A DNA stretch of 64,000 nucleotides, taken from NCBI GenBank assembly GCA_030062745.1, contig CP099841.1, positions 17,921,398-17,985,397 of the forward strand. Reading direction: 5' to 3'. A program made the position numbers and the translations under genes. Of the stretch, positions 2,316 to 62,880 are shown one piece after another. Position 1 is the first letter of the stretch; each line of letters opens with the position of its first letter. Origin of the DNA: Capitulum mitella. Taxonomy: Eukaryota; Arthropoda; Thecostraca; Pollicipedomorpha; Pollicipedidae. The notes beneath the pieces were generated by a model. That model saw only the letters and a program-made list of their open reading frames with translations, was not told the origin of the DNA and did not search any database.

Positions 2316-3533
2316 TTAACCTTATTCCCGGCGGGGGGGGGGCTGAATTGCCCCCCCTCGGGTTTCTTGCTTGCCAATTTCAGGGTTTTTGGCGCAGCTT
2401 TACCAAAGTTGGTGACTGTTCCTTACTATTTATTTCTACGTGCCGTGACAAAATTTCAAAATTCTAGTTGGTCAGGGACGGAGCCAAGCAACGTTTTTGG
2501 AAGGCACTTCAGGCTATTTCTGGCCCTGTTGAGGGTAAAAGGAAAATGACTGCCAAAAATTGCGCTTTTAAGGTAGAACTTAAAACTTTACTTGGACGTA
2601 TAGCAAAATAGTTGGGTAACGTGCGGATACAATTTTGTTCATGTGTGATCACTTCGAAAGGTCAGGCCAAGGTCAAAAGTCAAAATTTGGTTTTATAGCA
2701 ATAATTTTGGCGTTACTTTTTCAAATGCCAAACCTGGAATATATATGCCGTAATAGAGTACCCCCTACATGTGTATCAAGTTTCAGCTTGATATCAGGTC
2801 GGGTCACGGAGCTTTGACCTAAAATGTCAGTGAGCGTACCCTATATCACAATAGCTGTAAAATGGAATTTTTGAGATAGAGTGAATTCAAGCGATTGAAA
2901 ACGTTTACAGATAATATTAAATGAACACGAGATCATTTCAAGTGACTCCAAGGCCATTGGAGGTCATTTAAGGGTCAAAGGTCACAAGTTGATCTGAAGA
3001 ACGTGTGATCATGACATTTCCCTCGTTTTCATGTTCCTGGCACCACCTATGCTAGCATTATACAAATATTGTAATGCGATTTGCACTTCTTTAGCATAAC
3101 ATGACTAGCATAGCCAAAAAAAAGGTTTTTGCTGTTTTATTCATTCAGTTTGTGAAAAACTAATCGTCCTGTTTTTGAGAACCTGTGAACGCCTATGAAT
3201 TTTCTCAAAATTTTAAATGTGTGTACCAATGGTAAACGTCCCATCCATAATCTCTCGATTCATGCCAGTTTCATCGAAATCGGTCTATAAACAACGGAGT
3301 TATAAGAAGTCCAAAAGTACCCCTAATTTTGACATTTTTGCCCCCTGTATCCACCGCTTTCAAAATTTTGGAAATTGCTGTTTATAAAAGTGTAGTTTAC
3401 GTCATGGCAAATCGATTGCCGTTTGTTGCGATGAAATCGGATGTGTAGTTCTCGAGATCTCAAGGGGGGGGGGGCGAATCCGCCCCCCTGCCGGGAATCG
3501 CCATACCGTCTAGCCCTCCAGGAATAGGGTTAA
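2316..3533 (+). mobile_element. T1 non-autonomous TTAA element, copy 1
   Basis: The copy is bounded by TTAA at 2316-2319 and 3530-3533. Inside these are inverted ends of the form CCCTATTCCCGG (here CCTTATTCCCGG on the left). A G-run/C-run near-palindrome follows the left end, and a similar one sits about 40 bases inside the right end. There is no coding capacity. Three other copies lie at about 9.1, 35.9 and 51.3 kb. The TTAA target and CCC...GGG ends are the hallmark of the piggyBac superfamily; that assignment is inference because no transposase is present. The copy contains a near-perfect DR1 nuclear-receptor-type site at 2972-2984. Confidence 0.85.
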
Positions 3534-3609
3534 ACCACGCTAGTGAAGCGCTGGTGCTAAGTACAAGAAGAAAGTAGAAGTACATGGAATGACCCAGTGG
3601 CCTTTGTCG

Positions 3610-9126: not shown

Positions 9127-10340
9127 TTAACCCTATTCCCAGCAGGGGGGCTGAATCCGCCCCCCCTCGGGTTTTTTGCTTGCTGATTCCCGGCTTTTTA
9201 ACGCAGCTTTACGAAACTTGGTGACTTTTCCTAGCTTTTTTTTCTACGAGATGTGACAAAATTTTAAAGTTTTACTTTGCTCAGGAGCGGAGCCAGGCAA
9301 CGTTTTTGGGAGGCACCTCGGGCTATTTTTGGCCATGTTGAGGGTAAAAGGAAAATGCCTGCCAAAAACAGAGTTTTTAGAATAAAACTTAAAACTTTAT
9401 ATGGATGTATAGCTAAATAGTTGGGCAATGTGCACACAATTTGTTTTTTTGTCTGAGGTTACTTTGCAAGGTCAGGTCAAGGTGAAAAGTCAAAATTTGC
9501 TTTTTCGCAACAATTTCGGCGCCAATGCTTGAATGTCAAACCCAGAATATATATGACGTAGAAGGGTGCCCTCTACCTGTGTACCAAGTTTCAACGTGAT
9601 ATCAGGTCGGGTCACGGAGCTATGATCTAAAATGTCAGTGCGCGTACCCTATATCGCAATAGCCATAAAATGAATTTTTTGGAATAGAGTGAATTCAAAT
9701 GATTGAAAACGCTTACAGGTAATATCAAATGCACACGAGATCATTCCAGGTGACCCCAAAGTCACTGGAGGTCATTTAAGGTCAAAGGTCACAAGTTGAT
9801 CTGAACAATGTGTGACCATGACAGTTCCCCCTTTTTCATGTCCCTGGCACCGCCTATGCTAGCATTATACAAACACTGTGGTGCGATTTGTACTCTTTTA
9901 GCATAGCATGACTAGCAGAAGCCAAAAAAAGTGTTTTTACCTTTTTTGTTCATTCATTTGTTAGAAAACTAATCCCCCTATTTTTGAAACCCTGTGAACG
10001 CCCATGAATTTTCTCAAAATTCCAGATTTGTGCACCTATGGTAAAAGTCCTATCCATAATCTCTCGATTCATTCCAGTTTCATTGAAATCGGTTGATAAA
10101 CAACGGAGTTATAAGAAGTCCAAAAGTACCCACCCATTTTGACATTTTTGCCCCCTGTATCCACAAACTTCGAAATTTTGAAAACTTCTTTTTATAAAAA
10201 TGTAGTTCACGTCACGGCAAATCGATTGCCGTTTGTTGCGATGAGATCGGACAAGTAGTTCTCGAGATCTCAGGGGGGGCCGAATCCGCCCCCCTGCCGG
10301 GAATCGACCATACCGTCTAGCCCTCCGGGAATAGGGTTAA
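9127..10340 (+). mobile_element. T1 non-autonomous TTAA element, copy 2
   Basis: Flanked by TTAA at 9127-9130 and 10337-10340, with terminal CCCTATTCCC and GGGAATAGGG. It aligns along its whole length with the copies at 2.3 and 51.3 kb, including the stepwise G-rich near-palindromes at both ends. It carries no ORF. A perfect DR1 motif (two AGGTCA separated by one A) lies at 9779-9791, at the same place as in the other copies. Confidence 0.9.
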
Positions 10341-15920: not shown

Positions 15921-17300
15921 TTAACCCGCGCCCGACTGGCAGTCGGTGCCATGCACGCCCAACTGGGTAGGAGACGGTTGACTGCCCCCACTTTAACTCA
16001 CGAACGGTTAGACGCACAATGAAAATAACCATACTGTCGGAAACCTCGTGACAAGTAGAACTCAAAACCGACCTCATTTTCATTTTTGGACAATTTGTCA
16101 GTCATTCACGCCTTCTGCACGTTTCCTCATAGCCGACTACATGAAACCGAGAAACGGCCTACATCCCTAGGCGCATCCAAGGGGAGGGGGCCGGGGGTCC
16201 GGGCTCCCCCTTAGGCTTGTATTTCTTGTGAAAGTCATTGCACATCGTCTTCCCCAGAGGCGGTTTTCGTATGATTTGAGTTAACTCTGAGCTCTGGCTC
16301 CCCCTGAAGAAAATCCTTGCTGTGCCCCTACCTATATCTCAATGGCTGTAATCAGCAGTGCGTAGGTAACGGCACCATCGAGTACGTATAAGTCCGCAGA
16401 TGCCGATACACGCCTAATTTCTGTCATTTATTTAATATAAACAAGCGAACTTTGAGTTAAAGACACGGCACTGTTGTCCCACTACACCGTGGGCGCCGTT
16501 GCCGAACGCGGGGCGGAATTAGCGGGAACTCATTTTAGGGTTCCTTTTATTTTGGCGACACATGCGTTGTGAAGTGTTGTGTCTTGATGCTATTGGTTCA
16601 TGTGGTGATTTTCCATGCTTAAATTTGGAAAAAAAATCAGAAGCTATCAATCTACGCAGTTGGCAGAGTTTTATTCCCCGAACCCTGTTTTCTCAATTTT
16701 CAAAGTTTTTGAGCTTTTTGTTTTGCTCGCAACTGTGAGGGGCAATTCTAATATTGTCTTTCCGTTCCAAATCGTCTGTCACCGATTTTGACGGAGCTAC
16801 ATTTTGGCTGAACACGGTTATTGGTGACATGACCTCAGGTCGATGGTTGAAGGTCACTGATACTTTCTCAAATGACGGTCATTGGATATCAGCATCACCT
16901 CACACTCAAAATGTTTCAAAAAATTTCGTCAGTTTCCGAAAAAACGACATGTCTTGAAAATGGGGTTGACCCGAGGTCAATGGCTTGTACGATTCTGAAA
17001 AATCTGAGATAACAGATTTGCTGCATCTGTCAAGACCTCCAATGCCTGAAAGGTTTATTGCGATACCACGCTTTCCAAAAAAGTTACAGGAGGCCAAACT
17101 TTTTTGGACGTTGGTCCACTTTACCTAAGCCAGGTCAGACGCCTTACTTGACGTGAGGTCAAACCTTTTGACACAAGTTGTAAAAATGATCGGGCAAAAG
17201 ACTGATAAAATTTCTTGGCACTGCGTTCGTTCGTGCTCTCACAATTTCAGAAAAAACCTTGGGGGTCGCGGGCGGTCAACCAACGTCGGGAGCGGGTTAA
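15921..17300 (-). mobile_element. T2 TTAA-flanked element, reversed copy
   Basis: TTAA flanks both ends (15921-15924 and 17297-17300). The left edge TTAACCCGCGCCCGACTGG is the reverse complement of the right end of the copy at 31.5-32.8 kb, and the right edge matches that copy's left end. Non-coding. Like its relatives it carries everted AGGTCA pairs, for example near 16829-16842. A 165-bp MITE is inserted in it at 16166-16330. TTAA targets suggest the piggyBac superfamily (inference). Confidence 0.8.
16166..16330. mobile_element. 165-bp hAT-like MITE nested in T2
   Basis: Comparison with the uninterrupted T2 copy at 31.5-32.8 kb shows extra DNA here. It is flanked by CCTACATC (16158-16165) and CCTATATC (16331-16338), an 8-base duplication with one difference. 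Ends are imperfectly inverted (TAGGCGCATCCAAGG against TAGGGGCACAGCAAGG). An 8-bp duplication is typical of hAT transposons. Confidence 0.7.
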
Positions 17301-31510: not shown

Positions 31511-32755
31511 TTAACCCGTCCCCGACTGGGGGAGAGCGGTCGACCGCCCCCTGAGGTTTTCCTAAGATTGCAAGATAACGAACAAAAGCATCGCCACGAA
31601 ACTACGTGTACCTTTCGCTTCATCATTTTCACACCTTGTATCAAATTTTTGACCTCAGGTCATGTAAGGTGTCTGACGTAGGTCAGGCCAAGTGGAGGTA
31701 TGTGCAAAAAGTGCCTTGTAACTTTTTCGCAAAACGTGGTTTCACAATAAAAGTTTCAAGGGCTAGAGATTTTCATAAATGCAAAAAATCTGTCGTCTTG
31801 GATTTCTCGGGAATATCCGGGTCATTGACCTAAGGTCAAGCACGTTTTCAACATACGTTGTCTTTTTTTTCGAAAACTGACGGGATTTTTTAAAACAATT
31901 TGAGTGTGGGGAGAATCAGGCATCCAGTTTCCGTCAACGGGTGAAGTTTCATTGATCTCCGACCACTGACCTGAGGTCAGATCACGAATAACTGTTATGA
32001 GTCAAAGTGCACTGCCATCAAATTGACGATGAATAACTTAGATCGGGTTGAAAATGGCAGAACTGGCTCGCGCGGTTGCGACTAATATGAAGAAGTTCAA
32101 AAGTTTCAAAAAATGCATATTTTGAGAATAAACGGACTTCCGCGAATAGAGCTCCGCCAATGGTGTAGATTCATAAGTACTGAGTTTTTTCCAAAATTTA
32201 AGCATGAGAAATCATCCCCATGATCCAATAGGATGAAGAAACAAGCACTTGGAGTGGCATATTTCGTGAAAATAAAAGCACGTTAAAATTAGCTCCCGAT
32301 AACTTCATGTCGTCTTCGTCGGCGGTGCCCACCTTGCACCGTTGTGAAAATCACCGTGTCTTTAACTCAACGTTTCCGTGTACATAATAAAGAAATCGGA
32401 AACATTAGACGTGTATCGGCATCTGTGGACTTTTACCTGTCCGCTGGTGCCTTCATATAGACATTATGGATCACAGCCCTTGAATTTCAGGCCGTCTCTC
32501 GGTTTCATGCAGACTGCTATGATAAAATATGTATAGGACGTAGGTGACTTACATATTATCCAAAATAAAAAATTAGACCAGTTCCGAGCTTTACTCGTCA
32601 CGAGTTTTCCAACGGTGCGCCTATTTTTATCGTGCGACGAACCGTTCGTGAGTCAGGGGGGGTGGTCAACCGCCCCCCCCGTCGAGCGTGCATGGCCCCG
32701 ACTCAAAGTCGGGGCCATGCACGCCGCGCCCGACTCACAGTCGGGCGCGGATTAA
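31511..32755 (+). mobile_element. T2 TTAA-flanked element, uninterrupted copy
   Basis: TTAA lies at 31511-31514 and 32752-32755. The left end is TTAACCCGTCCCCGACTGG, and the right end closes with CCGACTCACAGTCGGGCGCG before TTAA. It has G-rich ends, no coding frame, and two everted AGGTCA pairs, including TGACCTGAGGTCA near 31968-31980. It serves as the reference for the two interrupted T2 copies. The piggyBac-like assignment is inferred from TTAA. Confidence 0.8.
32686..32750. repeat. Two adjacent perfect hairpins at the T2 right end
   Basis: An 18-bp perfect stem (32686-32703 with 32707-32724, loop CAA) is followed at once by a 12-bp perfect stem (loop CAC, 32724-32750). Both contain CCCGACT/AGTCGGG around their loops, so one probably arose from the other. 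They lie just inside the right TTAA end of the T2 copy. Confidence 0.95.
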
Positions 32756-34931: not shown

Positions 34932-37307
34932 ATAATCCGGCCCCGACGGGGGGATCGGTTGACCTCCCCTCGTAAGGTTTTTCGGAGACTGCGAGAGAAC
35001 GAACGAACGAACGAACGCAGCGCCACGAAATTTTGCGCAACTTTTTCTTGGCCATTTAAAATCTTGTATCAAAGTTTTGGCCCCAGTTCGAATAAATTGT
35101 TTGACCTAGGTCAGGTCAGGTGGACGTATGTCCAAAAGATTTTAGCCCCCCAGTAACTGTTTCGGAGAACATGATATTGCTATAAAACTCTCAGGGCTTA
35201 GAAAACTTGATGATGCAACAAATGCGCTTTATCGGATTTTTCGGAAACTTCCGGGTCATTGACCTCAGGTCAACCTCATTTTTAAGACGTATGGACATTT
35301 TTTCGGCAGCTGACGGATTTTCCCTAACGTTTTCAGTGTTGGGTGATGCAGACATCAAATGGCCATCATTTGCCAAGTATCAATGACCTTCAACTACAGA
35401 CCTGAGGTCAGATCATCAATAACCGTGATGAGTTGAAATGTACAGCCATCAAAATCGGCGATTGATCACTTAGAAGGGATACAAAACCCAGATTGGCTCT
35501 TACAATTGCGAGTAATAGCAAGATGCTCAAAATGTTTAAAAAAATGCTTATTTTGGAATAAACAGGTTTCCGCGAATAAAGCTCTGCCGATTGTGTAAAC
35601 TGATACCTGCTGTTTTTTTTTAAATTTAATCATGGAAAACTGTTACGAAAACCACTACCAATAAGACAGCGCCTAGTAAAGCATATGTTGCCAAAATAAA
35701 GGAACACAAAATTGGCTCCCGTTCACTTAGTCCCGTGTTCGGCACCGTCGATCCCGGTGCAGTGGCGCGAATATTGCTGTATCTTTTAATCAACGCTTCC
35801 GTAAAAATTAAACAAAAGAGAGAAGTTAGACGTGTATCGGCATCTGCGGACTTTAATCCTATTCCCGGAGGGCTAGACTGTATGGCTGATTCCCGGCAGG
35901 GGGGCGGATTCGGCCCCCCTGAGATCTCAGGAACTACACACCCGATTTCATCGCAGTAAACGGAAATCGACTTACCATGATGTGAACTACATTTCTGAAA
36001 AAAGAAACTTTCAAAATTATGAAAGGGGTGGATACAGGGGGCAAAAATATCGAAATGGGGGATACTTTTGGACTTCTTATAACGCAGTTGTTTATGGACC
36101 GATTTCAATGAAATTGACATGAATCGAGAGATTATGGATAGGACTTTTACCACTGATACACACATTGGAGATTTTGGGAAAATTCATAGGGTATCAAAAA
36201 CAGGATAATTAGTTTTCTAAAAAACCTTAATGAAGAAAAAGGTAAAAACACTTTTTTGGCTTCTGCTAGTCCTGTCATGCTAAACAAGTACAAATCGTAT
36301 TACAATGTTTGCATAATGTTAGCATAGGCGGTGCCAGGGACATGAAAAAGGGGGAACAGTCATGGTCATATGCTCTTCAGATCAACTTGTGACCTTTGAC
36401 CTTAAATGATCTTCAATGATCTTGGAGTCACTTGGAATGAACTCGTGTGCATTTAGTATTGTCTGTAAACGTTTTCAATCATTTGAATTCACGCTATTTC
36501 AAAAATTCAGTTTTTATGGCTATTGTGATATAAGGTACGTGCACTGACATTTTAGGTCATAGCTTCGTGACCCGACCTGATATGAAGACCTGATGCATGT
36601 CGGGTTTGGCATTTCAGAAAATACCGCCGAAGTTATTACTATAAACATGAACATTGACTTTTTACCTTTACCTGACCTTGTAAAGTTACCTCAGATGAAC
36701 AAAATTGTATTTACACGTTGTCCAACTATTTAGCTATACATCCATATAAAGTTTTAAGTTCTATCTAAAAAACGCACTTTTTGGCAGCCATTTTTCTTTT
36801 ATCAACAGGGCCAAATTGGCTTGATGTGCCTCCCAAAAACGTCGCCAGGCTCCGCCCCTGAGCAAAACAGATTTCCGAAATTTTGTCATAGTACGTAGAA
36901 AGAATAGCTAGAAAAAGTCACCAAGTTCCGTGAAGCTGTGTTAAAAACCTTGAAATTGGCAAGCAAAAACCCGAGGGGGACGGATTCAGCCCACCTGCCG
37001 GGAATAGGGTTACCCTATTCGTTGCTGCCTGTACTTCGGTTTTTTTGATCACAGCCCTCGAGATGCAGGCTATTTCTCGGTCTCATGCAGTCGGCTATGA
37101 GAAAACATATATAGGGCGTAAATTGGCTTACATATTATCTAAAACTAAAAATGAGATCAGTTTCGAGCTCTACTCGTCACAAGTTTTCCAAGGGTATGCT
37201 TATTTTTATTGTGCGACCAACCGTTCGTGAGTAAGAGGGGGGCAGTCAACTGCCCCCCCCCCCAGTCACCCATGTTCGAGACGGACCGATGGTCGTGCGC
37301 GGGTTAA
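34932..37307 (+). mobile_element. T2 element split by a nested T1 copy
   Basis: The left end (ATAATCCGGCCCCGACGGGG) and right end (closing with TTAA at 37304-37307) match T2. The two halves, 34932-35852 and 37014-37307, align with the uninterrupted copy at 31.5-32.8 kb on either side of a complete T1 insertion. The nesting gives the order: T2 landed first, T1 later. Confidence 0.75.
35853..37013 (-). mobile_element. T1 TTAA element, copy 3, reversed and nested
   Basis: Bounded by TTAA (35853-35856) and TTAC (37010-37013), with the T1 end structure in reverse order. The extra CGGTATGG/GTCTAGCC stretch that marks the T1 right end lies on the left here. The body aligns antiparallel with the other three copies. 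It keeps the perfect DR1 motif as TGACCTTTGACCT at 36390-36402. Confidence 0.85.
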
Positions 37308-43837: not shown

Positions 43838-43846
43838 GTATAACAA
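43838..43846. repeat. 9-bp target site duplication, left
   Basis: GTATAACAA immediately before the left end of the foldback element; an identical copy lies at 47220-47228. Confidence 0.95.
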
Positions 43847-43971
43847 ATGTAACGGAAGACAGCCCACATTCAGCCCAGATTCGGCCCAGCCCAGATTCGG
43901 TAGGGAATTCCCTTCACGGGACGATAACTCCCACAGAACTTGAGAAACCTGGCTTTGCCACATATCACATG

Positions 43972-44815
43972 AAAGCACTCGTTAAACCAAACACAACTGT
44001 GCAAAGAAAAATCACCTGCCTTCTCTATGGGGAAAGCTATAGACGATCGAAAAAATCATGTCAATGGGGCGGCCCCTACGATTTTCTCCAAAACTGACAC
44101 ATTAAACCACCGACACAAGCCCATCAATCTGGCTGAAGAAACCCTATGGGCCATTGAAATCTAAGGCGTCAAAACCTCCGAGGAAAATTAAAAACGCGTT
44201 TTACACCTTAAACAACGCCACGCATAGTCCGAATGACACATCAAAGGAAAGCACTAGTTAACCCAAACACAACTGTGCAAAGAAAAATCACCTATCTTGT
44301 CTATGGGGAAAATTATAGACGATCGAAAAAATCATGTCAGTGTGGCGGCCCCTACGATTTTCTCCAAAACTGACACATTCAACCACCGATACAAGCCCAT
44401 CAATCTGGCTGAAGAAACCCTATGGGCCATTGAAATCTAAGGGGTCAAAACCCCCTAGGAAAATTAAAAACGGGTTTCATAGCTTAAACAACGTCACGCA
44501 TAGACCGGATGGCACATGAAATGAAAGCACTCGTTAACCCAAACACAACTGTGCAAAGAAAACTCACCTACCTTGCCTATGGGGAAATTTGCAGACGATC
44601 GAAAAAATCATGGCAATGGGGCGGCCCCTGCGATTTCCTCCAAAATTGGCACATTAAACCACCGACACAAGTCCATCAATCTGGCTGAAGAAACCCTGTG
44701 GGCCATTGAAATCTAAGGGGTCAAAACCCCCTAGGAAAATGAAAAACGCGTTTTACAGCTTAAATAACGACACGCATAGGCCGAATGACACATCAAATAA
44801 AAACACTCGTTAACC
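43972..44815 (+). repeat. 276-bp satellite units, left arm
   Basis: Units beginning near GAAAGCACTCGTTAACCCAA start at 43972, 44247, 44523 and 44800, giving three full units and the start of a fourth. They differ by scattered substitutions only. Confidence 0.9.
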
Positions 44816-45505
44816 CAAATACGTATATAGTTTGCTGGTTTCGTGCTCTATTGGCTGCGCTCTTGATCTCCACCACTGTAAGTAAGGTATCTATTGTTTA
44901 CATGTCACTGCCAGATCCCTACATCCATTTCTATGCACTTAATTAAATGATGCAGATTCTGGTGTCGCAGGAGACTAATCTTGTCGGGTTTCTTGCTGTT
45001 TAAGCTATAGCTCCACAGCTTTAACGTACCCGCTGTTTTTATCAAAGCCCATCCACAATATCTCGCTTTGAGATGACTAACTAGTGTCTGTCTTACTATG
45101 CTACTGTCTTGACTTCCAAAGTATAATTGCCCAGCCTGGTTACGAGACGACATGTCACCTGGTGCCAATTAATGCACGGAACGGCAGTAAGAAAGACGAT
45201 ACTGTGCTGTCTCGTATTCACGTTGTTATCATATCAGTAACTGCGAACCGAATTACATACCTGAAATGAAACAAAGATCGACCATGTAATCTGGGGGCTG
45301 CACCAGTGAGCATTCTTGAATATATTCAATACTTGAGCACACAAGACGACTGGCTACTTAATTTGTGTAAGCCTAATCAAAGACATGCACATGCGCACTA
45401 CACAGCCGGTGGCACCACCAGCGACACCCGAGGCAACAGTCACTAATCACACTAGTATCGCTGTTCATCAACATCAATCTAGCGCTTGAGGAGCGAAAAT
45501 TTTCA

Positions 45506-45890
45506 TCACTCTTCGGTCGCGATTTCGGTCGATACGCCGCCTCTCTGCAGGGCATCCTCGATTCACACTGACAGCTCGGTGGCAGCCGGGTCCAGGCCGG
45601 CCAGCGGCAGAAGGCGCGGGTGCAGGTACGGCACCGAACGGCATACCGGCAGCGAGGACACCAGGTACATGTGGTACATTTGGCCTGGTCATCCGCAATC
45701 ACTTGGATCGGCGAGGGCATCTGGCCGACGTCCAGTCTGCGCGGTTTGCCATACGTCCGCCCAGCGCCGTATGCGGTCCCGGGGGCGTCTGGCTGAACAC
45801 GCTCAGCGGTGGGGGATAAGCATTTCCCGGCCCAGGCGGCGCCACCATCCCCGGCATCGATGATGGAGGTGTAACGGGTTGCATTTTGGC
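45506..45890 (-). pseudogene. Sec24: Rearranged Sec24 (C/D-type) gene fragment
   Basis: On the minus strand a proline-rich piece (SSMPGMVAPPGPG, near 45845-45871) is followed in the next frame by PRRLD...QMPSPIQVIADDQ (45682-45747). This motif is characteristic of the start of the Sec24 core in COPII cargo-adaptor subunits, closest to the C/D type. A third frame (45563-45670) reads ...PYLHPRLLPLAGLDP, resembling a segment much nearer the Sec24 C-terminus, and IEDALQRGGV follows after a stop. At least three frame changes and a large internal deletion make it non-functional. The first motif is a confident match; the C-terminal match is probable. It lies wholly inside the foldback element, so it is most likely a captured gene fragment. 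Confidence 0.65.
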
Positions 45891-46613
45891 TCTTTATTGC
45901 AGGCATACGAGAATTCAAAATCTTTTACATCCCGGCTTCTGAGACGACGCTGGCTTAGCATCGATGCAGCTGTAGCTCGTTTCTAGGGGCAACATCGATC
46001 AGAGGTCCCACAGGCTGTTTTTGTGTGACTGAAAAACAACCGGTTAAGATTCCAAATTCAGACCGGCCGAACGCCAAACCCAGATACGCCGGCGTCAGTG
46101 GGTCACAAAGCCACGAGGGGGCCGCAAGGACGGCGCCGGGGCCCGAATGCCTGACCCAGAAACGCAGCCCTTTTTTCCAAGGCCGACTGGATACGTCACA
46201 AGCTGACGTAAACCAACTGATCAATCACACTGTGCCATGTCGAAGCCACGTGAAGTCTCAGAAGCGGAGGAGAACAAGGTGAAAAAAGATTTGAAATAGT
46301 TCAGCCCGGGAAGAGTTCGTGGAAGGTCTCCATACAACAGAGTTCGGGAGGAGTTCGTGGGAAATTTGACTGAGAGTGGTTGCCAGTCATGGGTGCAAGT
46401 TCGAGAGGAAAGTCCAGCCAGCCCAGAACATCATCCGTGAGTTGAATGTTATACGGCGCTCAAAATGTTCTGCCTGCACCACGTTTTTTTGGTTATACGG
46501 TCACGCAAAATCCCAGTCGTAATGACAACCGTCCATCCCACGGAGAGAGGACAGGAACAGGGGGACACCAGGGGCAGTGAGGGCTTGGGATGCATCCCGG
46601 GATGGGAAATTGA

Positions 46614-47090
46614 TTTTTTCGATCGTCTATAACTTTCCCCATAGACAAGGTAGGTGATTTTTCTTTGCACAGTTCTGTTTGGGTTATCGAGTGTTTTCAT
46701 TTGATGTGTCTTTCAGCCTGTGCGTGGCGTTGTTTAAGCTATGAAACCCGTTTTTTGTTTTTACTAGGGGGTTTTGACCCCTAGATTTCAATGCCCCATA
46801 AGGTTTCTTCAGCCAGATTGATGGGCTTGTGTCAGTGTTTTAATGTGTCAGTTTTGGAGAAAATCGTAGAGGCCGCCCCATAGCCATGATTTTTTCGATC
46901 GTTTATAACATTCCCCATAGACAAGGTAGGTGATTTTTCTTTGCACAGTTGTGTTTGGGTTAACGAATGCTTTCATTAGAGGTGTCATTCGGCCTATGCG
47001 TGGCGTTATTTAAGCTGTAAAACCCGTTTTTAATTTTCCTAGGGGGTTTTGGCCCCTTATTTGATTTTGGTGTTTGGGTGTTAACAAGTG
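46614..47090 (-). repeat. 276-bp satellite units, right arm
   Basis: Reverse-complement units of the left-arm array, with unit boundaries near 46695, 46962 and 47083. The outermost unit is internally shortened. Similarity to the left arm is very high. Confidence 0.9.
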
Positions 47091-47219
47091 CTTTCATTTG
47101 ATGTGTGGCAAAGGCAGGTTTCTCAAGTTCTGTGGGAGTTATCGGCCCGTAAAGGGAATTCCCTACCGAATCTGGGCTGGGCCGAATCTGGGCTGAATGT
47201 GGGCTGTCTTCCGTTACAT

Positions 47220-47228
47220 GTATAACAA
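47220..47228. repeat. 9-bp target site duplication, right
   Basis: GTATAACAA directly after the right end of the foldback element, identical to 43838-43846. Confidence 0.95.
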
Positions 47229-50048: not shown

Positions 50049-52540
50049 TTAACCCGGCACGGCCTGGAGTTGTCAAATAGGGCACCCTCTCTTTCTCTTA
50101 AATAGCTTCTAAAACTGGGGTCAACCCAACCAAGCTTTCAGCACCTGTTCATTGATCAATTTTACATAAAATAAATCAATAAAAACCATTCCCGTGACTG
50201 GTCAGGTTATGGGGATATGACGTCTTAAGTAAACTCATGCATGCATGTTTTCGCCTCTTCGGGCGGTGGCGCGGACGTGCTTGTTTTTTTTTTTTGATAA
50301 TATTCACGAATAAAATGCATGAATTATTTGGATTTACAAAGGACACTGTCCCCAAAGAGATATACAACCAAGTCAGCATTAAAGGTCATGCTAGGTCACA
50401 TGCATAATGACAGCTGGACTGACTTGCATTGTGGTTAACAGAAGTGGTTGCCGCTGACCTTCTCCATCGTTCAGGGTAGACAAGCAAAGCTAAATGCGCT
50501 CATTAGCAACGTTCACTAAATGCAACGTGAGGTCATGTTAGGCCACGCCATAGGTAGATGTCAAAACGAAATAAAATGCAACATTGTTTGTGGAAGATCC
50601 TTCAGTTGCAGCCAAAAGCAGCTATTGTTCCTAATGGGAAAAAGAAAAAACGACCATCTGTCCTGACCTGGCTTGACCTTGACCCGACAAAGAGCAGACA
50701 GAACAGATTTAGTTCTCACGAGACGTCATTTCTGTTCTGCACTTGATGCAGTTAAGAATCCCAGCGAGCAATTATTGCTCTTTGTCAGGAAGGGTAAAGC
50801 AACCTTTTCTAACATGACCTAGACTGACCTTGGCCTGATGAGAAGCAGGTAGTGTAAAACTGATCATCAGCAGGTTTCACTTCCATCCTTTTTGGCACGT
50901 GGATCAAGAAGGCTGCGAGTAAGTATCGATCTTTGGCAGGTAAAGTAAGATCAGTATTTCACATGACCTAGGTTGGCTTTGTCCCGACATTTTTAAATAT
51001 TTTGACATGTTTCTAATGCAAAAGATTGTGACCTTCCGTTTAATACCCAGTTGAAGGCTCTAAGGCTAGTATTGCCGATGATATGATGTACAAACCGATG
51101 TCAGTTTTTCCGACGCCGTGTTATGCGTTTTACGTGACCTGCGACGTCATCAGTCATGTGATCAGGGCTAACTAAGATGGTTTTTCTGAATCGCAAGACT
51201 CAGAGCGATCGATTGGTGGTATACCGAATCAAATCCGACGGTTAGATCCTGAGATAGTAGGGGTGCCCTTTTTGACACCCCTAACCCTATTCCCGGCAGG
51301 GGGGGCGGAATCCGCCCCCCCTCGGGTTTTTTGCTTGCCAATTCCAGGTTTTTTAACGCAGCTTCACCAAACTTGGTCACTTTTCCTAGATATTCCTTCT
51401 ACGCGCCGTGACAAAATTTCGAAATTCTATTTTGCTCAGGGGCGGAGCCAGGCAACGTTTTTGGGAGGCACCTCAGGTCATTTTTGGCCGTGTTGAGGGT
51501 AAAAGGAAAATGTCTGCCAAAAATAGAGATTTTAAGATAGAACTTAAAACTTTATATGAATATATAGCTAAATAGTTGGGCAATGTTCATATGTAATTTT
51601 GTTTATCTGAGGTCACTTTACAAGGTCAGGTCAAGGTCAAAAGTCAAAATTTGTTTTTTCGCAATAATTTCGGCGCCGTTTTTTCAAATGCCAAACCCAG
51701 AATATATATAACGTATAAAGATGCCATCTACTTGTGTACCAAGTTTCAGCTTGATATCAGGTCGGGTCACGGAGCTATGACCTAAAATGTCAGTGCACGT
51801 ACCCTATATAGCAAAAGCCGAAAAATGAATTTTTTGGAATAGAGTGAATTTAACCGATTAAAAACGTTTACAGATAATATTGAATGCACACGACATCATT
51901 CCAGGTGACCCCAAGGCCACTGGAGGTCATTTAAGGTCAAAGGTCACAAGTTGATCTGAAGAACGTGTGACCATGACAGTTCCCCCTTTTTTATGTCCCT
52001 GGCGCCGCCTATGCTAACATTATACAAACATTGTAATGCGATTTATACTTCTTTAGCATAACATGACTAGCAGAAGCTAAAAAAGTGTTTTGGCCTCTTT
52101 TGTTCATTCCGTTATTAGAAAACTTATCCCCCTATTTTTGAAACCCTGTGAACGCCCATGAATTTTCTCAAAATTTCAAATTTGCATACCCATGGTAAAA
52201 GCCCTATCCATAATCTCTCGATTGATGCCAGGTTCATCGAAATCGGTCCATAAACAACGGAGTTATAAGAAGTAAAAAAGTACCCCCCATTTTGACATTT
52301 TTGCCCCCCTGTATCCACAAATTTCAAAATTTTTAAAAATTTCTTTTTATAAAAATGTAGTTCACGTCATGGCAAATCGATTGCCGTTTGTTGCGATGAA
52401 ATCGGATAAGTAGTTCTCGAGATCTCAGGGGGGGGCCGAATCCGCCCCCCCCTGCCGGGAATCGGCCATACCGTCTAGCCCTCCGGGAATAGGGCTAAGC
52501 AGTCGCGAGTACAGAAAGCCGCCAGGCGGTGCCGGATTAA
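50049..52540 (+). mobile_element. T3 TTAA-flanked element with internal repeats
   Basis: The left end TTAACCCGGCACGGCCTGG and the reverse complement of the right end TTAATCCGGCACCGCCTGG form inverted ends outside which TTAA is present on both sides (50049-50052, 52537-52540). The interior has loosely repeated blocks about 150 bases apart, beginning TGACCT...TGACCTTG (near 50662, 50815, 50963). The element is interrupted by a complete T1 copy. A second T3 terminus occurs at 39.2 kb. Non-coding; possibly piggyBac-like. Confidence 0.55.
51281..52498 (+). mobile_element. T1 TTAA element, copy 4, with CTAA target duplication
   Basis: Complete T1 copy with terminal CCCTATTCCCGGCAGGGG and CCGGGAATAGGG. 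It is flanked on both sides by CTAA (51281-51284 and 52495-52498) in place of TTAA. It carries the perfect DR1 site at 51934-51946 and the half-site cluster near 51623-51640. It lies inside the T3 element. Confidence 0.9.
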
Positions 52541-60600: not shown

Positions 60601-61820
60601 GAACCTTAAATTTGGCCTCTGTGCCATCCCTGATGAGCTTCTTTCAAACCATGTCCCAAGGAAACGACGGATACCGTAATGCAACTAGTGCCAGAAACCG
60701 CATCTGTTATGGATATTGTGACGTTGCATAGCCTGGCCTGTGATGGCCTCGCTAACTGTTTCTTGTCGAAAGATAGCTGTTTTGTTCACGTCGAGATCAT
60801 TGATTTGGCATGTTTTGGAAGTGATACCAAAAAACCATGAGATACCAGAAATACGCACAGAGGTACTTCTCAGGGCACCAAGAAATTTGACATGATTTGG
60901 AACTTATATCGGAAAACCACTAGATGGCAAAAACACGCACATAAGTCCTTCTCTGGGCATTAGAAAAGTCTACATTTTTTCTACTTCCGAAACCCAGTGC
61001 AACCAAGATCTTTCCATTTAGTTCATGCAATCAACTCGATGGCATGACACATGATGAAGAAAAATGCAAAAGCTAAGAGAAAAAAGACGTCAGAAGTATA
61101 TAGCCGATAGAGAGTGATAACTTTAAATAGCAGTGAGGAAAGAACAAAGATAGAGTAATCTGAGTAGATATACAGATAGGAGAAAGATGAAATTATGGAA
61201 GCAAGGAAGACATACGATCTATCGCTCTGAAGCACAAAGGTCAACAAGAGTTTGAAGAAACTGGCCACCATTCTGTAAACTGTCGCTTGTGCATATCCAC
61301 TTGCAGGCATCTGGTGCTTGGAAAGCTAGCATGCAGAAATACCAAAATTACAGGAGTTTCCATGTTTGTTCTTATTTATTACTAGGTCATCATCTTCAGC
61401 TGCGGTTCACTGGACGGCTAACGATTCAATGAATTGTACTTTCAAGACAAATTTGTATCCTTGCTTCGTCTTTGGAAAACGAAATTTATTTTCTGCTTTT
61501 TGGTCCGATATGCATCATGGTGCCACCTACGCATTTCTGATCCCCGATCAATGGAAGACGAGCAATGCAAAAATAAAAAAATGGGAAAGGTCTGGCCAAT
61601 TCCAGACCTAAGGTTGTAGACTGTTTCCAGGACCGGCGGCTTAAAATACAAGTACGGTCTGGGGCTGAACTGCACGTTTAAAAAAATAATCGACTACAGC
61701 GGGTACCGAAAATGACTTTTGAACCAGCTTGGTGGGTAAATCAGCTTGCAGAGCAAGCAGCTGCAACCAAGGGCTGACTGGCTGAGCATTCACGGATGCA
61801 TTCAACAAACGGCAAAGCAG
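57677..61820. other. Probable NCKX intron/intergenic stretch
   Basis: No further NCKX exon was found on the minus strand: I saw no second alpha repeat (GTSIPD-type motif) and no linking transmembrane segments. Only scattered short frames occur. The 18-bp-stem hairpin at 59749-59793 is the one clear structure. Confidence 0.45.
59749..59793. repeat. Perfect 18-bp hairpin
   Basis: TGCCTTACCCAGTGCAAC (59749-59766) is exactly complementary to 59776-59793 around the 9-base loop ATGATAGCT. The stem is shorter than a usual animal pre-microRNA and does not extend beyond 18 pairs. Confidence 0.95.
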
Positions 61821-61830
61821 AGATACTCAC
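61821..61830 (-). promoter_or_regulatory. 5' splice site of the NCKX exon
   Basis: On the minus strand the coding sequence ...GTGACAAAC is followed by GTGAGTATCT, a strong donor. It lies after a complete codon (phase 0), and the conserved protein sequence loses its family character beyond it. Confidence 0.85.
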
Positions 61831-62592
61831 GTTTGTCACCAGGTGGTCGGTGCTTCTCACACGGCTAACTCGCTTCCCGACGATGTGTGTCTTCACCCAG
61901 CGCTCAACACTCGCGTTGATTTTCATAAAGAGGCAGTAGGCCACGTACCACATGAAAAGGATAAGCGCCTCCCACCATATGACACCTCCGTCTTCCAAAA
62001 ACGTCATGAGTAGGAGTAAGGCTATGCTGTAAAAGGTCACATCCCGGAAGAGTGGCCACCAGGTCAGCTCCAGGACTGTCCGACTAAAGATCACGCACAT
62101 GGCGATCACAAACAGGATGTTGAATACGGCTGATCCGACGATGGTGCCGACGCCGACGTCGTTCTTGGCGATGAAGACGCCGATGATGCTGGTGAACAGT
62201 TCGGGCGCCGATCCGCCAGCGGCCATGAACGTGGCGCCGGCCACGTCTGTACTGATGTTCAGCTTCTCTGTGATAACGTCCAGTGACGGCACGAAGAACT
62301 CGTCGCACACGATGGCCAGGGCAACGAACATGTAGATCATGCCCAGCACGTGCAGGGCGACAGCTCCGTTGCGGCGCTGCTGAGGCGTGAACAGGTCTTC
62401 CGGGAACAGGTCCTTCTTCTCTTCTTTGGGCGACGCGGAGGGCGTGGGCTCCTGTTCTGCCAGCAGCTGGCGGCTGCCCGGGCTGGACAGCAGCTGGGGT
62501 GTGCTGTTGAGAACCACCAGCACCAGCAGGGCGCTGAGCAGCGCCAGCGGGCCCAGCGGCCGGCGTCGGCCGGCCAGCAGACGCAACGACAT
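61831..62592 (-). CDS. NCKX: K+-dependent Na+/Ca2+ exchanger (SLC24/NCKX), first coding exon
   Basis: 254 codons from ATG at 62592 to the donor. Residues 10-31 are a hydrophobic leader ([17 protein letters not shown]) of the cleavable-signal type. A Ser/Glu/Lys-rich stretch with [20 protein letters not shown] follows, then the alpha-1 repeat. [10 protein letters not shown] (96-105), [17 protein letters not shown] (119-135, with the ion-binding Glu131) and [14 protein letters not shown] (148-161) are diagnostic of NCKX. Two more membrane segments (about 183-197 and 203-222) and a basic start of the cytosolic loop close the exon. Family members exchange Na+ for Ca2+ plus K+ at membranes, mostly the plasma membrane. 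They need a second alpha repeat, which is not in this exon. No ATG lies upstream in frame. A -3 G favours this start. Confidence 0.93.
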
Positions 62593-62880
62593 GACGCCGG
62601 TCAGTGAGCGGCGCGGCGGCCGCTCATGTCGACTGGAAGGACGGGCGTCGACTGGCGCCGACCTGCTATCGATCGGCAGGTGGGCCGTCGGTCCAGACGC
62701 CGGCGCACCACCTGCGCCGACGCGCCGCCCGGCGGCCGGCCCAGAAACCACCGTCCGACCCCGGCCAGCACAGCGACACCGGCAGCCGAATCTGCGCCGA
62801 CGCGCCGCCCGGCGGCCGGCCCAGTAACCATCGTCCGGCCGCGGCCAGCACTACGGCAACGGCAGCCGAAAGGCGATGTG
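62060..62880 (-). promoter_or_regulatory. CpG-rich 5' region of the NCKX gene
   Basis: C+G and CpG rise sharply from within the NCKX exon to about 290 bases upstream of its ATG, then fall back to the A+T-rich background. This is the profile of a CpG-rich promoter/5'UTR, though coding bias explains the part inside the exon. No TATA box or initiator could be singled out. Confidence 0.5.
62711..62869 (-). repeat. 80-bp tandem duplication in the NCKX 5' region
   Basis: Two adjacent units (62711-62790 and 62791-62869) share CTGCGCCGACGCGCCGCCCG and most of the rest, with a one-base length difference. The duplication sits about 120 bases upstream of the NCKX ATG, so it would fall in the 5'UTR or core promoter. 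Confidence 0.9.

Follow-up and report, generated by a model that had tools for sequence, protein, structure and literature searches.

The 64,000-nucleotide stretch of the Capitulum mitella genome analyzed here, referred to as the window (C3:17921398-17985397 of a 477-Mb genome in 16 contigs), carries at 43847-47219 an element that is, in our assessment with high confidence, a non-autonomous, internally deleted copy of a family of foldback DNA transposons resembling Mutator-like elements (MULEs). The members of this family share common tips and a 9-bp target duplication, have empty sites at several loci, and include both deleted and gene-bearing copies. The longer copies with the same ends encode a DDE-type protein, the likely transposase.

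Structure of the window element

The element is flanked on both sides by the 9-bp sequence GTATAACAA (left copy at 43838-43846, right copy at 47220-47228), starts with ATGTAACGG at 43847 and finishes with CCGTTACAT at 47219, which bears out the duplication and the boundaries proposed by the sequence-only reading. The outer inverted repeat comprises 139 nt that are 96% complementary, while the longer satellite pairings between the arms are 86–91% complementary; the arms, previously described as near-identical, are in fact 86–96% alike. On the left, a 113-bp tip (43847-43959, plus strand) is followed by 3.1 direct units of a 276-bp satellite (43960-44819, plus strand). The right arm contains the same satellite in inverted orientation (46611-47106, minus strand), followed by its own 113-bp tip (47107-47219, minus strand). 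Part of a unit is missing on this side; complete units number 3 on the left and 0 on the right. The earlier description of arms built from 276-bp units in opposite orientation holds for the satellite and its orientation, though not for complete units in the right arm. A 14-nt motif, CAGCCCAGATTCGG, is found three times in the left tip (two identical copies and one 86% alike), and the three repeats in each tip are perhaps putative binding sites.

Between the arms lies a 1791-bp interior (44820-46610), identified by alignment to two related copies, L045 and L046, as an internally deleted form of the ~2670-bp interior of a group termed family A below. It is 93.1% identical to the interior of L045 and 94.3% to that of L046. 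The suggestion that the window copy is a young insertion is ruled out by this 93–94% identity to its near relatives, compared with 99.4–99.8% among some copies of another group, family B. The interior includes an uninterrupted TTAA site (44995-45029, with TTAA at 45000-45003), the place where family B carries a nested 1.2-kb TTAA-flanked element, and a module at 45480-45910 (minus strand) that had been labeled as a piece of Sec24.

A dispersed family with target duplications and empty sites

Searching the genome with a 30-bp tip pattern, with up to three mismatches allowed, returned 149 places (72 forward and 77 reverse), against 0 for a control in which the pattern was read backwards. The comparisons below use 100 of these places, all exact, which were paired by hand into about 38 pairs, a sample that favors copies with two exact ends. 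Twenty copies were read whole (L045-L064), eleven further copies were covered either by their ends (nine) or, for two short ones, whole, and a copy at C1:8744252 (L009/L010) was added. Together with the window copy, and with L052 (C3:18002131) counted once, these make up 33 distinct pairs; the five pairs outside this set are located on C15 (three) and C16 (two).

The 9-bp duplication is perfect in 28 of the 33 pairs (27 at first comparison, plus L087 once its duplicated tip was allowed for), has one mismatch in three and is absent from two, at C11:198376 and C16:17808981 (L077-L078, L089-L090). At C11:198376, two inverted ends abut with six bases lost, a layout that suggests rearrangement between copies. 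No strong base preference in the target was seen among 30 distinct duplications. The outermost ~14–16 bp of the tip are doubled at one end of three copies (the right end of L045 and of L078, the left end of L087), and in L045 and L087 the 9-bp duplication sits outside the extra tip.

Empty sites were sought by joining the flanks of 21 copies (L045-L064 and the window copy) with a single copy of the duplication and comparing the product with the window and the loci read. For L050, L051, and L052, the junction aligns to element-free copies of the same dispersed repeat in which the site is single-copy, as exemplified by GGTTCACAA in L057 and L050; the alignments for L050 are interrupted by a short gap where its duplication is imperfect. 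L054 represents a weaker case (73.8%). Among the loci compared, neither the window copy nor the other 16 copies had an empty site. With its duplications, dispersed copies, and empty sites, the family is a foldback-type DNA transposon, and its 9-bp duplication lies within the 8–11 bp of Mutator elements and MULEs. The sequence-only reading had anticipated further copies with different interiors and 9-bp duplications, which the terminus search recovered, as well as empty sites, which were obtained for three copies but not for the one in the window. L050, L051, L052, and L057 are located within or next to copies of a single dispersed repeat, at different positions.

By their interiors, the 21 copies were grouped into family A (the window copy, L045, L046, L049, L050, L056, and in part L052), family B (L048, L051, L053, L055, L057, L059, L063, and L064), deletion forms (L047, L054, L058, and L061), a 410-bp form (L060), and L062.

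Copies encoding a candidate transposase

The interior of L062 contains an open frame of 848 aa with a weak match to PF10551 (MULE; E=0.019). All 3 of the sequences aligned keep D, D, CxxH, and E without variation, the two relatives being 45% and 37% identical; a D..D..CxxH..E pattern is characteristic of MULEs along with a small number of other superfamilies. A genome search with the transposase gave 88 matches, with 78 of 113 candidates scored. All eight loci that are 97–100% identical to it lie within ~7 kb of an exact family terminus, on the expected side, and one of them, on C11, abuts a tip directly.

The copy at C1:8744252-8756479 is a 12.2-kb element, all but ~4.5 kb of which was read, with the perfect duplication CGCCATTTC. 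It holds a 1110-aa frame in which a DDE part is followed by a repeat-rich stretch and then by an Ulp1-type protease domain. This in-frame DDE–Ulp1 fusion is seen in one of the copies read, L067, whose C-terminal part alone matches PF02902 above the cut-off (E=3e-5) and aligns with SENP1 chains (E=1.1e-5) at H, D, Q, and C columns, which we take to be the catalytic residues. Such a DDE–Ulp1 protein would recognize and cut the tips and, by a cut-and-paste route, mobilize the deleted copies in trans.

Several observations weigh against the assignment of this family to MULE-like elements with their own transposase. Over the DDE stretch, PF10551 reached 14.2–16.4 bits, below its cut-off of 27.6 (E=0.012–0.061), and the divergent relatives L091 and L092 gave no Pfam match. 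Profile comparison (hhalign) with three clear MULEs of the same genome was weak (probability 1.7%, E 0.03). The whole 1110-aa frame scores 20.1 bits for PF02902, just below the cut-off of 20.7 (E=0.0006), and a piece of L070 matches no Pfam family. No listed terminus lies near the fragment at C13:5711634 (93%) or near several transposase loci at 84% identity or lower. The tip motif does not occur above chance in the 276-bp unit, leaving the arms unsupported as extra binding sites. The record on chordate MULEs is contested, because one survey did not detect MULE transposases in the lancelet sequences reported earlier (PMC6446971; this and the papers below are cited from extracts). In no copy read do N-terminal repeats, transposase, and protease share a single continuous frame: the transposase frame is broken in L068, L069, and L070, the C-terminal part is lost in L066 and L062, and the N-terminal repeats are out of frame in L067. 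Present activity is consequently left unsupported. Finally, the Pfam scans of the transposase frames revealed no zinc finger (SWIM, FLYWCH, or similar), which is not decisive, because several MULE groups also list none (Table 1 of PMC6446971). The earlier expectation of a copy encoding a MULE transposase with a SWIM zinc finger is therefore borne out in part: copies with a DDE protein exist, but without the finger and with a MULE match under the Pfam threshold.

We consider it improbable that the mover is instead a transposase of another superfamily (e.g., P/Galileo, hAT, or Zisupton-like), with the DDE–Ulp1 gene as a passenger or a member of another class. Of the 33 pairs, 31 have a 9-bp duplication with one mismatch at most, whereas P, hAT, and Galileo elements make duplications of 7–8 bp. 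A THAP domain, expected for Galileo and P elements, was not among the Pfam families found in the transposase frames, and the near-identical transposase loci lie at family termini in eight cases out of eight. The sub-threshold MULE score would fit such a mover, as would the arms of Galileo, an element with a P-superfamily transposase in which ~210-bp tandem repeats are unequal on the two sides as they are here (PMC3573991). Against it, Ulp1 domains have been reported in animal Mutators, namely those of hydra and lancelet (cited in PMC2836005), and also in plant MULEs (PMC13317346). The hydra and lancelet elements resemble the present family, by description only, in combining an animal host with a Mutator-type element that has an Ulp1 protease domain.

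Relative to L062, the synonymous/nonsynonymous codon differences are 2/3 in L066, 4/7 in L067, 6/6 in L068, 6/6 in L069, and 11/10 in L070; these counts are small and not independent. Two coding minisatellites occur in L062 and L066-L070, an N-terminal one of 27-bp repeats rich in Ser/Pro and a C-terminal one rich in Ala/Pro/Gln, and both vary between copies. Related transposase families at 30–46% identity are present in the genome, e.g., at C3:26147087-26148763 and C12:988082-989758, two of them with 1181-aa open frames. Six matches to PF10551 above the cut-off (L039-L044) represent separate, clearer MULE lineages of the same genome. In the PDB, the L062 transposase had no match by sequence and chance matches only by profile; NCBIfam gave a chance match only, and no pattern match to transposase relatives was found in viral contigs.

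Satellite arms

Across the family, an arm consists of the 113-bp tip and 0–10 complete 276-bp units, and arrays reported by TRF (Tandem Repeats Finder) in the 21 copies span 1.9 to 10.9 units. At least one complete unit is present in an arm of 20 of the 21 copies, the 410-bp L060 having a fragment only. By unit extraction, which halts at nested insertions and so leaves a few counts low, the number of complete units differs between the two sides in 17 of these 20 copies. The proposed foldback or MULE-like mobile family with satellite arms of varying length is in agreement with these counts. Unequal exchange or slippage during replication may lengthen and shorten the arms. The idea that they are arrays of the tip motif was not supported, since the motif score was reached in 1426 of 2000 shuffles and the tip score in 356 of 1000.

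Units are on average 96% identical, whether within one element or between elements of the same group, and 92% identical when family A is compared with all other copies taken together (family B, deletion forms, and L062). For 35 of 107 units, a nearest neighbor is found within the same element; in 200 label shuffles this number averaged 10 and never exceeded 21. Over the outer 389 bp, compared in 19 copies (L052 and L060 were dropped, their arms not being alignable), the partner arm is a nearest neighbor of 13 of the 38 arms, whereas 1000 shuffles gave 1.8 on average and at most 8. Because same-element nearest neighbors of both units and arms exceed the shuffles, the comparison supports modest homogenization within elements, by which the two arms of one element may have become partly alike.

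A clean 276-bp tandem repeat in unequal arrays could also be an ordinary satellite, with unrelated DNA placed in or between the arrays and the inverted layout arising by chance rearrangement. A few unit clusters without a listed terminus beside them (e.g., C6:2578498-2579046) are compatible with this, but most of the listed matches to the unit elsewhere in the genome adjoin family termini, as judged by eye, and tips, 9-bp duplications, and empty sites are the marks of a mobile unit. The last two features, together with the existence of a family, make an ordinary satellite very unlikely in our view.

The interior module and nested elements

The module at 45480-45910 is common to 15 of the 21 copies, the other 14 being 92.7–96.8% identical to that of the window. 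Because the module, possibly derived from Sec24, is so widely shared, its simplest origin would be a single acquisition followed by amplification along with the element, as opposed to a separate capture by each copy. The presence of an interior module, as described by the sequence-only reading, is confirmed, but its identity as a rearranged piece of Sec24 is not: the label is possible and unconfirmed. No single frame spans the module. Two short peptides presumably resemble Sec24C/D, and a search of 177,635 PDB sequences with one of them gave a single match under E=10, which is to Sec24 and weak (E=0.65).

The alternative that the module is ancestral non-coding DNA of the element, its likeness to Sec24 being accidental, is a serious one, to which we give somewhat less than an even chance. 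The PDB match disappeared when a longer L049 reading was used, the second peptide had no match in the PDB, Pfam scans of the module showed nothing Sec24-like, and of the further searches for Sec24 one returned nothing and one chance matches only; the distribution over 15 copies also suits DNA that belongs to the element. A captured piece of a host gene is in turn favored by the resemblance of the two peptides and by the fact that the only PDB match under E=10 to one of them was a Sec24.

Family B copies usually carry a 1.2-kb insert twice. This is an element in its own right, bounded by TTAA on either side and with the ends CCCTATTCCCGG and CCGGGAATAGGG, nested in arms as well as interiors of the foldback family; four solo copies lie in the window (2317-3535, 9128-10340, 35852-37012 on the minus strand, and 51282-52498). 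The idea that the interior was wholly captured by the foldback element was therefore rejected in part. L052 contains another insert with TTAA on both sides, and three segments of the window (31547-32661, 16784-17280, and 35102-35640) are 72–75% identical to this second TTAA-flanked insert.

Elsewhere in the window, an open frame at 61741-62850 (minus strand) resembles a sodium/calcium exchanger exon. Neither Rfam families nor tRNA were found in the window.

Relation to known elements

With long inverted arms, internal tandem repeats, and a variable middle, the family displays the arm plan of foldback elements, and it is a MULE-like foldback resembling Tetris and Tm1. Tetris, a foldback of Drosophila virilis, likewise has an outer flanking domain, arms that both contain ~220-bp tandem repeats in varying numbers, a variable middle, and 8–9 bp duplications in complete copies, and its repeats also seed satellite arrays (PMC4079207). 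The likeness concerns the arm plan and not the unit sequence, the unit here being 276 bp, and a transposase was not found for Tetris according to the extract, whereas transposase-bearing copies share the ends here. Tm1, a Mutator/Foldback element of the root-knot nematode, has 9-bp duplications, composite foldback-like termini, and both non-autonomous copies and a copy encoding a MULE-type transposase (PMC3169594). It differs in its arms of ~14-bp repeats and in a transposase with FLYWCH and a clear MULE domain, for which the extract mentions no Ulp1.

Rehavkus shares the 9-bp duplications, the long termini, and an associated minisatellite, but it has a PHD finger, which was not among the Pfam families found in the transposase frames here, and the minisatellites of the present family lie in the transposase frame (PMC6446971). 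For arthropod MULEs, terminal repeats of 13–1193 bp are given in the text and 1527 in one table row of PMC13359780. Animal Pack-TIRs (Pack-type elements with terminal inverted repeats) have already been published, among them Ssk-FB4, in which the terminal-inverted-repeat element FB4 carries a non-transposon module in many copies, as here, except that its parental gene is known (PMC8277862). Each feature alone is known already, from Tetris, Tm1, Ulp1 Mutators, and animal Pack-TIRs; the combination was not met among the papers listed by a literature search limited to open-licence papers, with Repbase outside its scope.

We also put forward, tentatively and with considerable doubt, a broader scenario of a MULE/Ulp1 family in which a transposase-bearing master and module-carrying derivatives would share an expandable satellite arm and thereby spread the 276-bp satellite (in arms of up to ~11 units) together with a host-derived Sec24 module, the arms being homogenized within elements. 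A single genome offers copies that bear the transposase, numerous deleted derivatives whose arms each have 0 to 10 complete units, and empty sites. The relation of arm length to transposition, arm homogenization, and the seeding of satellite DNA by transposons are accordingly testable in one genome. While Tetris was described without a transposase, the barnacle elements open a satellite-armed foldback family to study together with its probable engine.

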